Assembly (NCBI GenBank): GCA_010909725.1
Contig: JAACMV010000002.1
Coordinates: 1,178,001 to 1,242,000, forward strand
DNA length: 64,000 nt
Direction of reading: 5' to 3'
Source: Picochlorum sp. 'celeri'
Lineage: Eukaryota > Chlorophyta > Trebouxiophyceae
Under the pieces are notes generated by a model. It ran no database searches, had not been told where the DNA came from, and was given only the letters and a program-made list of their open reading frames with translations. The position numbers and the translations under genes are program-made. Of the stretch, positions 7,286 to 46,323 are shown piece after piece. The number at the start of each line of letters is the position of its first letter. The stretch's first letter is position 1.

Positions 7286-7561
7286 CTCGATTTAGTAGGA
7301 TTCTTGATCTTTTTATCACAGTGGATTTCTCAAGATATACTGTTTGCAAAGCCAGGTGTGCATGCAGATGGGTGCATCATCCGTTTGTACAAACATCAAT
7401 GGGGCATGCAGAAATTTTCTAGGAATGTGTGAAATCCGAGTCAGCGTCTGGTCAGAATCTCAAACATTCTGGTCTTCATCCTAAATGAGTAGAGTTTATT
7501 TGGAGAGAACACATTAAGATAATCGTCATCACAATCGCAGCTGAGTTTACTCAGATTGACA

Positions 7562-43397: not shown

Positions 43398-43399
43398 TA
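43398..43399. repeat. TA target-site duplication, left
   Basis: TA directly precedes the left inverted repeat; a matching TA follows the right one at 45967-45968. TA duplication is the mark of Tc1/mariner-type insertion, but two bases alone are weak evidence. Confidence 0.5.
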
Positions 43400-43423
43400 C
43401 CGTAAAAATTTTAAATTTCGTTT
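43400..43423 (+). repeat. Left terminal inverted repeat of Fanzor element
   Basis: 24 bp, beginning C-C-G-T-A-A-A-A and ending T-T-T-C-G-T-T-T. It matches the reverse complement of 45943-45966 at 21 of 24 positions (mismatches at positions 2, 10 and 15). A further shared block G-G-A-A-T-G-T lies inward at about 43430-43436. Confidence 0.85.
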
Positions 43424-43531
43424 AATTAAGGAATGTAACATCTAGTCCATTTGACTCTGGTCAATCCGAATCTTCTAGAACCTTGGATTGGTATGAAGTC
43501 GAGCCGCCATCGCCAACCGTGTCATTTCAAA

Positions 43532-45845
43532 ATGAAAAAAAAAGAGAAAGGTGTCCGCCACACCATCGAAAAAGGTGAAGAAAAAGAAGTTTACTCGATT
43601 GGATGTGGCTATAAAGAAGGATAAAGACCGTTTTTTCAATAAGACAGTCGTCAAGTGCACTTTGCAGCCTTTTTGTAAGTTCAAAGTGGTTCAACGCGAA
43701 ATTGAAGAATGTGTATTCTATCTGAGTAGACTACAGATTCATGTGCATCATGTCATGCATCTATTGTTATTGAGGAACGGTGGGGCATTTAGAGACCACA
43801 AAGATGAAACTCTCTACGAACTCTACAACAAAATCTACAGACACCTTGCTAATCATTTGCAACAAAAGAAGGAGAGAAAGGATGTTGATACCAACTTGCG
43901 CGACTTGTGCAAGGAATATTGTGAGGAGACTGGGTTAAGAACAGATTGGCCACAGGGTTGTCTCTCTTCTTGGAGAGGCAAAACAATGGAGCAGATGGCC
44001 CAGCAGTCGTCTGTTATGCATACCACGCATTTGGAAACCAATCTTAATGTATATGCATTACGGTATCTGAGATATTTGCTATTTCGAGACGACACGGACT
44101 TTGACCAAATCAAAAATTTGTCAAAGAAGAAGTTTGGACAAGTATTTTCTGCAATCACACAGGCATTCTGGGAGAGGACGAAAGTCAGTGATATTGTTGA
44201 ACGTAGACCATCATTGACAGAATTTGCGTCTGATGTGTCAGTATGGGATGAAGCACAGAGAGCCTTGGATATCATTTGCTCGTTGGTGCCAAAGACGACA
44301 ACTCTTTCTGAGAAATCCAGAATTTGCTTCTTCATTTTGGGTCACTTGGAGCCATTCGTGGAATCACTGCAACAGAGGTTCAGAAACGGAGAGTTTGAAG
44401 GGAAGAAGAGTATACTTGGAAGACAGAAATGGACATTTTGTCTGTGTCCACAGATGGCCTGGAAACCAAAGCATATCCATATCTCCAGCACAGCAGTGAA
44501 GACTATGGTTGAGCAACTCGCAAAGAAATATCCATATATCAGAAAGATAGTAGATGACTGTCCAGCACTGGATGACTATACAAATAAGTATTATTATTGG
44601 AAATCGATATTCAACATGAAGCGAGTATTGAAAAAAAAGCACATGAAGGACCAAACGAAACTCAGATTCGGATGCTCTATATGTACTGATGGCGTCTCTG
44701 TTTCTGCTGTTATAGACACTGTGAAGTCGGATCTGGAATGCAAGATAATCCATCTGCAGGATGATATGAATTACGTCAAAGCAAAGTTGTGGGCCACCTA
44801 TTGTGGGATGTTTGCAACCAACATTATTGCAAAAAAGATCAGATATGACCCTTTGCGTATTCTCCTTGGTGACATTTCCACCATACATTATGTTCTACTG
44901 AAGCCATTGTTGCATACATTAAAGTCACAAAAGGACGTTCTACAGAAACGAAAGGCTAAAAACAAAGACAAGACAGTCATCACAGAAAGGATCAAAAGGT
45001 TGGCTGGCATACGCAAAGATGACCATAGTATATATCACACAGATTGTATCATTGTCGGTTTGGACCCAGGTAAAAAGTCAGCGGCCACGTGGGTTTTTCA
45101 TGATTCGGAAAAGCAAAAGATCCATGCAAAGTGGAATGCAGAAAATGGTCGTCATACAGAGGTGGAAGACAAATATAAAAGTGATTCTCTGGGGTCAGGA
45201 GAATGGATCTTCTTATCTAGTCAGAAACAGTATACAGCCAAAATGAAGAAAAGGATGTCTGAATACTGTCCTGCATGGATGTCTGTGCCAACATACAAGA
45301 CAGTAGATCTTGAGAAAATTTTTGAGAGTTACAGATTCCAAGTTTCTATGTGGCCCCAACTGCAACAAGCCTTCTTCGATGACAAAAAATGGTATCAGAA
45401 ACAGAAGATGAGGAAATTTTGCAAGGAAAAGTCGGCCATGGAGGATGTGGTTGCTCGAATCTGTGGAACAAGAAACAAAGAGGCACAGAAGAGAGTCATC
45501 GTGGCGTATGGTGATGGTGATAATAACGGCACAATGAGGGGCACTGCTCCTATCATGAGCACAAAACTGTTCAACAAGGTATCGGAATGTGCCACAGTTG
45601 TGTTGGTTAATGAATTCAATACGTCCAAACTCTGTTCTTGCTGTCATGAGGCAATGGAACAGTACAACAAACAATTCAGGATGAAACGTTGTCACAACAA
45701 TGAATGCATTCGAAATGTTTGGGACCGTGATGTCAATGCCAGTATCAATATCAAAGACTTGTTTTTGGAAAAGTGTCACAATGGAGCTCGAATCAAGGCT
45801 TTCAAGAGGACGAGGAAAAGGCAAAGGACATCAACACGGCAATGA
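43532..45845 (+). CDS. Fanzor (TnpB-like RNA-guided nuclease), with 5' frameshift
   Basis: The open frame 43551-45845 encodes about 764 residues but has no ATG before Met69 (43755). An ATG at 43532 lies one base out of frame; a run of nine A's (43535-43543) follows it. One A fewer would give M-K-K-K-R-K-V then S-A-T-P-S in frame. This is either a real indel, a length polymorphism or an assembly error. Catalytic features are intact: RuvC-I Asp505 in G-L-D-P-G-K-K, RuvC-III Asp727 in W-D-R-D-V-N-A-S, and a zinc finger C695-x2-C698 with C714-x4-C719. Between them lies V-N-E-F-N-T-S-K-L-C, with Glu688; the canonical RuvC-II position has no Glu (V-A-Y-G-D-G-D), matching the rearranged active site known in Fanzors. 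The N-terminal 490 residues are basic and helical, as expected for guide-RNA and DNA binding. Fanzor1-like by length and motifs. Confidence 0.93.
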
Positions 45846-45942
45846 ATTCGGCATGTAAGTCGGCTGCTTTTTGCAGACGCTATGCTTCAAGATACAGCAG
45901 AGAGAACGATGGAACTTCCAAGTTTGGAACATTCCGTCCGAC
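45846..45942 (+). ncRNA. Candidate guide (omega) RNA region of the Fanzor element
   Basis: This 97-bp stretch lies between the Fanzor stop and the right inverted repeat, the place where TnpB and Fanzor guide RNAs usually reside, often overlapping the ORF end. It contains a CTGC-TTTTT-GCAG hairpin near 45864-45878 and TTCCAA-GT-TTGGAA (45916-45929). The guide itself would be taken from DNA beyond the right end. No transcript evidence; the call is positional. Confidence 0.35.
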
Positions 45943-45966
45943 AAACGAAATTAAAAAATTTTACTG
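45943..45966 (-). repeat. Right terminal inverted repeat of Fanzor element
   Basis: 24 bp, reading A-A-A-C-G-A-A-A on the plus strand and ending A-C-T-G, then TA at 45967-45968. The junction creates TGTAA (45965-45969), so the element end could double as a polyadenylation signal for the Fanzor transcript. Confidence 0.85.
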
Positions 45967-46323
45967 TAATTTACGCGAGCGAGCGATAGATGTTGATTAT
46001 TTTTTCAAGATAATTTTGAGTATTCTTAATAATATGTGTAATCATGTATCATGAATTTGCGTGATTCTGCTGCTACCTTGTAGGGGACAAGGTGACACCG
46101 AGAAACGAAAAGTGAAAGTTTGAAGGTTCTCGTACCTGAACCACTATAATATGAGATTCATCCATCCTTTTTCCGTTCAATAATTTGGATAGTTTGGATA
46201 ATCATATCTGATTCGGGGTTGAGTATCAGCAACAAATACAGTACAGTCCGGTGACATAGCGAGCGAGATAGGATTGAATAGATGCTGGTGCTGTAACCCA
46301 CACGAATTAATTAGATTGATAAA
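45967..46323. other. Intergenic, 357 bp
   Basis: Host DNA between the Fanzor element and the lipase gene. GCGAGCGAG occurs twice (about 45975 and 46259) and an 8-bp tandem TTTGGATA pair lies near 46185-46200. No gene seen; includes the lipase promoter. Confidence 0.5.

Follow-up and report, generated by a model that had tools for sequence, protein, structure and literature searches.

What does a Fanzor do for the transposable element that carries it? The question is raised by a stretch of 64,000 nucleotides from the green alga Picochlorum sp. 'celeri' (assembly GCA_010909725.1, contig JAACMV010000002.1, positions 1,178,001 to 1,242,000; hereafter the window, G+C 46.9%). Here an element of 2,567 bp (43400-45966) has a single long gene, which codes for a Fanzor1. 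Elements of this kind have been known since 2013, and what is new here is the comparison of homologous chromosomes. Based on this comparison, we think that the element is probably a transposase-less, pogo-type derivative that homes, with its Fanzor1 driving RNA-guided copying into empty homologues. We also lean, by a small measure, towards calling it a natural RNA-guided gene drive in a eukaryotic nuclear genome, in which each insertion would re-program the Fanzor, a cut would be made next to an A-N-A-T-A motif and repair would make the insertion homozygous. The host role of Fanzors is stated as unknown in the relevant part of the SpuFz1 study (PMC10432273), and the open-access literature, in the portions searched, gave no report of Fanzor homing between homologues. 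If true, homing would supply the missing biological role of Fanzors and explain why they ride many unrelated DNA transposons.

Ends and insertion sites

The left terminal inverted repeat CCGTAAAAATTTTAAATTTCGTTT (43400-43423, forward strand) and the right one, CAGTAAAATTTTTTAATTTCGTTT (reverse complement of 45943-45966), agree at 21 of 24 positions, and a TA adjoins each of them on the outside (43398-43399 and 45967-45968). The initial annotation had thus placed the boundaries exactly, to the base. The ends are not a chance pattern, since with up to three mismatches they gave 48 matches in the genome and a backward control gave 2. Of these matches, 39 are the termini of near-full copies. A DNA search of the assembly (27,412,692 bases in 30 contigs) found 20 such copies, 98-100% identical, together with a left-end fragment of 394 bp and two relatives at 68%. 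A lack of other copies, which the initial annotation had named as refuting its reading, is thus not what the genome shows.

P. celeri has been published as a phased diploid of 27.43 Mb, with two sets of 15 scaffolds, 46% G+C, a heterozygosity of 0.8% in single-nucleotide polymorphisms (SNPs) and polishing with PacBio reads only (PMC7225527). The homologous contig pairs that we saw include C2/C22, C17/C8, C4/C30, C15/C27, C19/C11, C20/C5, C10/C16 and C3/C23. Grouped by flank, the 20 copies and the fragment make up eleven sites, and the element is on both homologues at seven of them: S1, the window site (C2/C22); S2 and S6 (C17/C8, at 1.04 and 0.99 Mb); S3 (C4/C30); S5 and S9 (C15/C27, at 61 kb and 0.92 Mb, the latter in a histone deacetylase, HDAC, gene); and S8 (C19/C11). 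Three were seen on one contig only, namely S7 (C27:10466, locus L012), S10 (C21:96611, with mixed flanks) and S11 (C22, 14 kb, the 394-bp fragment); for S10 and S11 this status comes from the contigs with copies, the other homologue lying outside the comparison. Loci L012 (one homologue), L015 (mixed flanks) and L020 (truncated) are out of the pair counts and in the left-flank motif counts. S4 is a multi-copy subtelomeric site on C29, C13, C21 and C1 (L007, L013, L015b, L016), not scorable for homologues; it was excluded from the seven-site counts because these contigs show many insertions and deletions (indels). Even there the element has fewer SNPs than its flanks (L007/L013, 4 versus 31 expected), and the right flanks diverge from about 20 nucleotides past the TA, in an ATT repeat.

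Identity between homologues

Of the seven shared sites, five have flanks that differ and so are informative. At S8 the two copies have no SNP, versus 69 expected from the 1.4-kb flanks (p 3e-22). The 2,712 bp of flank behind this larger figure, with 75 SNPs, take in a denser repeat stretch farther to the right. If only the single-copy flank is counted, with 26 SNPs in 1,791 bp, the expectation for the 2,501 bp of element that both copies share falls to 36, versus none seen (p 1e-10). The HDAC site, S9, has 0 SNPs versus 24 expected (5.3 kb, p 2e-6). At the window site there are 0 versus 6.6 expected (9.9 kb, p 0.003), or 10.1 with 2.8 kb of flank, and flank SNPs stand 33 bp and 525 bp from the element. 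S3 has 0 versus 7.3 (p 0.006) and S5 has 1 versus 8.3 (p 0.015). The element is therefore younger in the second homologue than the divergence of its flanks. This is strong at S8 and S9, for S9 if the assembly is right, and the three weaker sites, S1, S3 and S5, add modest weight.

Alleles could have become alike in an ordinary way. The element could be a passenger whose Fanzor has no role in retention, inserted before the haplotypes split, its alleles being made alike by mitotic gene conversion or loss of heterozygosity. Loss of heterozygosity has been described in vegetatively diploid algae, in the part of PMC12633428 that deals with it, and the flanks at two of our sites are free of SNPs. 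However, identity at S8 stops at the borders of the element while the single-copy flanks differ, and a converted tract that fits a 2.5-kb element, with SNPs 20 bp away, itself requires a break at that site. Moreover, SNP differences mostly number 2-15 between copies from different sites and 0-1 between alleles. We thus consider a mere passenger unlikely.

The same numbers bear on conversion among all copies, which would homogenise the element without any copying between homologues. Two non-allelic copies, L012 and L014, differ by 1 SNP (L007 and L015 by 0; the S9 variant differs from the others by 37-45, L015b left out), and non-allelic copies are homologous only as far as the borders of the element, where the islands of identity end too. 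Nevertheless, in all seven allelic pairs the copy nearest to each member is its allele, and such ectopic conversion leaves unexplained the target nucleotides missing past the TA at two sites (1-16 and 21-23, see below). It seems to us very improbable.

Selection on the gene does not explain allelic identity either, because codon changes among seven close copies run at about 1 silent to 3 replacing; little selection on the Fanzor is visible since its recent spread.

Other elements of the genome were compared in the same way. A second Fanzor-like family on C10/C16 had 7 SNPs versus 21 expected (p 0.006), lower than its flanks and with no island. The other controls are weak: the C20/C5 pair, described below, has 0 SNPs but 12 indels in the element, with 6 clustered SNPs on one side; of two candidate miniature inverted-repeat transposable elements (MITEs), one pair of loci is identical (L028/L029) and the other evenly diverged, with one end only found (L030/L031). 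A pogo insertion on C2 (L043) was rejected as a heterozygous control, being nested and rearranged.

Possible scars at two sites

S8 is the most telling site. Searches with its flanks (1,091 bp left, 796 bp right) matched only C19 and C11, except for a short subtelomeric repeat at the distal end of the right one. C19 has a complete insertion, TTTTATA-element-TACAATAG. On C11 the element is without its first 65 bp and is joined to TTTTAT; on the right side the TA is followed by AG in place of the 16 nucleotides CAATAGAACGTAACCA (aligned as a 14-nucleotide gap plus two mismatches), and beyond these the flank continues. SNPs between the two haplotypes resume at 20 bp from the element on the left and at 69 bp on the right.

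A crossover or a long conversion tract is disfavoured, because either would have carried the flank along, and an independent insertion into the same TA would leave the 16 missing nucleotides unexplained. Copying into a break about 16 nucleotides past the TA, in contrast, would explain all features of the site. The arrangement is hard to explain without a break in the empty C11 site. A natural step beyond these results would be to ascribe that break to the Fanzor.

S8 also speaks to the assembly. Repeat copies or unphased stretches may have been written into both haplotypes, so that allelic identity would not be biological. The long-read-only polishing and pseudo-haplotype output (PMC7225527) make this conceivable, as does the indel noise in C1, C13, C21, C29 and C5. 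Still, the C11 copy differs from that on C19 in its junctions and, on either side, in flank SNPs, and was thus not block-copied from C19 by the assembler; at the window site too, SNPs lie close to the element, as given above. We judge an artefact of assembly to be quite improbable.

A second possible scar is at S3, where the C30 homologue has lost TTC at nucleotides 21-23 past the TA, with 0 differences in 1,400 bp of left flank. SpuFz1 cuts after nucleotides 16-17 on one strand and 20-21 on the other, according to the section on its cleavage (PMC10432273). Thus target nucleotides past the TA are missing at two of the seven sites, 1-16 on C11 and 21-23 on C30. Statistical support for a cut zone is thin: in a zone of 8 nucleotides, set after seeing the data, 0.054 indels would be expected over the seven sites (p 0.0014 for both sites, p 0.05 for S3 alone).

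Target site and predicted guide

A TA stands beside every end seen, except on the left side of the scarred C11 copy. S9 indicates how it arises. There the element interrupts the HDAC gene on both homologues, as a 5.3-kb insert (L023:1954-7274, which is C15:912453-917773, and the C27 homologue), the left end of this copy having received a 2.75-kb repeat. When the HDAC flanks are joined through one TA, the frame runs unbroken (...TLSFHKFGDMFFPGTGD...), so the TA was duplicated on insertion. The initial annotation had named empty sites with TA as a point on which its reading could fail; at the HDAC site the conserved frame returns once the element is taken out together with one TA. In two closely related HDAC loci (66% and 61%) the stretch that matches is free of stops on both homologues, although the frame on C30 is shorter than the one on C4 (292 versus 474 amino acids). 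No empty paralogues of insertion sites were found among the loci examined. The joined flanks of S3 have a paralogous counterpart at C30:37832-38040, which is 98% identical across the junction, only 14 nucleotides of the match lying to the left of it. C27:10466 (S7) was rejected as a clean heterozygous empty site, because left flanks do not correspond: the element sits at a breakpoint, its right flank 98% identical to C15 (L032:1049) and its left flank without a match there. A repeat of 2.5-2.75 kb (L034, L033, L036, L023:1979-4732), which looks like a subtelomeric or mobile repeat, stands in tandem beside S4 and is also present inside the left end of the HDAC-site copy.

The base before the left TA is A in all eleven distinct left flanks (background 0.37, p 1.7e-5). 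Two positions beyond that base, A stands in nine of the eleven (background 0.265 from window composition, p 2e-4). A symmetric preference of the transposase would predict T to the right of the TA equally often; it was seen after the right TA in only one of nine flanks (versus 11/11 ATA on the left, p 7e-5). The left motif is thus strand-specific, as a target-adjacent motif (TAM) would be. We predict a TAM of the form A-N-A-T-A, of which the ATA at the window site includes the TA at 43398-43399. The TAM of PpFz1 is ATN, and that of SpuFz1 is CATA, where the account of the Spizellomyces element assigns the conserved CA before the repeat to the measured TAM (PMC10432273).

The guide would come from the other end. 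A predicted guide-RNA (omega RNA) scaffold would extend from around the stop codon to the right end (45836-45966, forward strand). The motif GAATTCGG around the stop codon is common to the window element and to the longer C20 element described below, and in both the right end has a potential hairpin followed by a second one in the terminal repeat. The C20 right end folds better than 200 of 200 shuffles (z -3.25). The predicted guide sequence itself would lie in the right flank, at 45969-45991 on the forward strand; the equivalent stretch has the inter-homologue deletions at S8 and S3. Two sequences are too few for covariation, and a search of viral contigs for related DNA gave 2 remote matches only. 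Rfam had no match for the predicted scaffold, and the genome DNA search for copies revealed no locus with a right end and no gene.

The Fanzor gene and protein

In the window the gene body (43551-45845, forward strand) is an open reading frame of 764 amino acids from a GTG. The majority start across the 20 copies is an upstream ATG, giving 770 amino acids; the N-terminus is then MKKKRKV, a basic run resembling a nuclear signal. In the window copy this start (43532-43552, forward strand) is out of frame, as an A-run at 43535-43543 has one A too many (9, not 8). The allele of the window copy on C22 (L002) has an intact frame. The extra A may be a sequencing error, because the assembly was polished with long reads only. 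An unbroken frame to the conserved start is present in 13 of the 20 copies; of the other seven, six are broken and the window copy is open except for that start. The one-gene Fanzor reading of the initial annotation is therefore confirmed, with the amendment, absent from that account, that its copy is frame-shifted at the conserved start.

On its sequence and modelled fold, the window protein is a member of the Fanzor1 family, and RNA-guided cleavage is predicted for it. It has DPG at D511 (numbering of the 770-residue allele), then TSxxCxxC...CxxxxC...WDRD, that is, the catalytic and finger motifs already noticed from the sequence, and matches Pfam Cas12f1-like_TNB (E 1e-8). The Fanzor1 motif of Bao and Jurka, D-X(125,275)-[TS][TS]xx-C4 finger-X(5,50)-RD, is present as D511, TSKLCSCC...CHNNEC...RD with a spacing of 185; the C20 protein has it too, as do 19 of 19 database relatives. 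For these relatives identity ranges from 38% to 97%, and most have a similar basic N-terminal stretch. A single-sequence search with the window protein gave no match to a proven Fanzor1; a profile of 21 sequences was needed, and in its C-terminal part it matched the solved Fanzor1 of Guillardia theta (9cer, E 2.5e-5). The AlphaFold2 model has a mean predicted local distance difference test (pLDDT) score of 78.6 and a predicted template modelling (pTM) score of 0.68. In a Foldseek search of the PDB all of ranks 1-7 were Fanzors, with SpuFz1 first (4.5e-14), PpFz and GtFz (1.7e-10), and Cas12 proteins came next (3e-4). Since the TM-scores are modest (0.35-0.49 by query length), this likeness holds at the level of domains only. 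Motif, profile and predicted fold, the comparison with known Fanzor families that had been proposed, all place the protein in Fanzor1.

A transposase-carrying relative

The window element was initially read as non-autonomous and moved by a mariner transposase elsewhere in the genome. Contig C20 has a longer relative, 6,021 bp (C20:34490-40510) with TA-flanked ends, which encodes in one direction a transposase of 893 amino acids (Pfam DDE_1, E 6e-13) and then a Fanzor of 809 amino acids, 49% identical to that of the window. Its left end matches the window element over about 110 bp, including AATTAAGGAA and CGAGCCGCCATCGCCA (the shared subterminal region is 43424-43508 in the window, forward strand); beyond, the window element goes straight to the Fanzor. 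The right end of the C20 element has diverged, matching its own left end at 15 of 24 positions, and in the end scan it was outscored by a chance pair. The simplest reading is that the window family is a transposase-less derivative, formed by an internal deletion that removed the transposase. With one gene only, and a transposase in a relative with the same left end, the window family bears out the non-autonomous reading. As to the helper, a transposase with similar ends does exist, of the pogo type and not mariner proper: its domain, PF03184 (DDE_1), is one that we take to mark the pogo group.

We consider the C20 transposase the best candidate helper, one that would mobilise the window element. 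The search for helpers was limited to the DDE_1 family. Among the four DDE_1 loci scanned, C20 is the only one with similar ends; L043 was rejected because its ends are different (CTGTACCGCCGC), and L044 and L045 had no convincing TA-flanked ends in the short stretch scanned. A degenerate relative of the C20 transposase (62%) lies at C3:884780.

A model for homing

How could the element pass from one homologue to both? First, a transposase acting in trans, with that of the C20 element as the best candidate, would move it into TA sites; the copies, their ends and the TA duplication are observed. Next, an RNA read through the right end would carry about 20 nucleotides of flanking DNA as guide. 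The guided Fanzor, with A-N-A-T-A as TAM, could then cut the empty homologue about 16-21 nucleotides past the TA, as the possible scars and the published SpuFz1 cuts suggest. Finally, repair would copy the element into the cut homologue, mostly cleanly and sometimes with a scar, a step strongly supported at S8 and less so at four sites. The result would be spread from one homologue to both. The homologue comparison gives indirect evidence for the suggestion of the initial annotation that the nuclease may favour the retention of its element.

Several observations weigh against homing. The state on both homologues is not universal, as S7, S10 and S11 were seen on one contig only, and C15 has no element at the right flank that matches C27:10466. 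S2 and S6 have no flank differences, and S6 has 1 SNP inside the element. The low SNP count may be partly general to coding sequence, because the second Fanzor family is also below its flank expectation. Between the HDAC-site copy and the others, 15-16 codon differences are silent and 17-23 replacing, so the Fanzor was under some constraint. Only the C30 deletion begins in the zone of nucleotides 16-23; that on C11 runs from nucleotide 1 and ends at the edge of the zone. The left flank of the C20 element is TTA and not ATA, and the window scaffold folds no better than shuffles (z -1.2, 29 of 200 shuffles as good). Lastly, the assembly appears, on our reading of its method, to be a FALCON-Phase pseudo-haplotype build, in which unphased stretches may be written into both phases. 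S8 escapes this doubt because its two junctions differ, the other sites less clearly.

With a phased diploid, seven insertions on both homologues, predicted TAM and guides, possible scars and a candidate transposase, the role of a Fanzor becomes directly testable in a culturable alga.

Related systems

Homing endonuclease genes cut the empty homologue and are copied by repair, with fixed protein-DNA recognition at one site. The guide of the Picochlorum element, in contrast, would be re-set at each new insertion. The IS200/IS605 TnpB system, as presented in the relevant part of PMC11870625, is similar in that an RNA-guided nuclease cuts element-free copies and favours element-bearing ones; it differs in acting on bacterial plasmids with TnpA, whereas here the setting is a eukaryotic nuclear diploid and a DDE transposase. 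If homing is true, copying into empty sites, as practised by TnpB, also operates from one homologous chromosome to the other and alongside a DDE transposase.

Among the closest known elements is PUl-4, which in the description of Bao and Jurka (2013, PMC3627910) contains Fanzor1 only and has Mariner-type inverted ends and TA duplications. Their PUl-1 and PGv-1 are Fanzor1 Mariner relatives that also encode a transposase, like the C20 element. In the Picochlorum case the transposase is of the DDE_1/pogo type, the host is a diploid green alga, and homologues, TAM and scars have been compared; the account of PUl-4 and its relatives, where it describes them, does not treat these three points. Spu-1, the SpuFz1 element of Spizellomyces punctatus, shares the single Fanzor open reading frame, short inverted repeats, many copies, a right-end guide RNA and a conserved CA before the repeat within the TAM CATA, in the account of Saito (2023, PMC10432273), and SpuFz1 is the nearest solved fold. 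That account, where it treats the point, found no transposase with Spu-1 ends, in contrast to the C20 candidate, and reports 134 ghost loci, versus one left-end fragment in our DNA search. In Auxenochlorella UTEX 250-A, also a phased diploid trebouxiophyte, an uncharacterised multi-copy Fanzor element is mentioned as the most abundant repeat (PMC12633428), a natural second test case; where it is mentioned, no description is given of its ends, a transposase or its allelic state.

Other relatives in the genome

The C20 element has a 26-bp inverted repeat pair (L025:4073-4098 and 7377-7402), before the transposase region and before the Fanzor, possibly a shared promoter signal. The last 100 amino acids of its transposase have stand-alone relatives on C6, C18, C16, C4, C3 and C23 (36-50% among the matches listed). 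Ends like its right end (CAGGAAAA...TTTCGTTA) are present at C2:1322214-1322740 (L028) and C3:1013118 (L030), the MITE candidates used above as controls, one end only being found for C3. A third Fanzor relative lies at L027:2662-5724 (C20:45162-48224), with 1020 amino acids from a TTG and 38% identity over about 280 amino acids to the window protein; it had no Pfam match at E 0.001. The second Fanzor-like family encodes about 920-1024 amino acids at L037, L038, L040 and L042 (C10, C14, C16 and C11), with a remnant at L039. Three of its loci were scanned (L037, L038, L042) and had no convincing TA-flanked ends. In three loci the family adjoins COPA-like or PRMT1-like genes, as named from their open reading frames.

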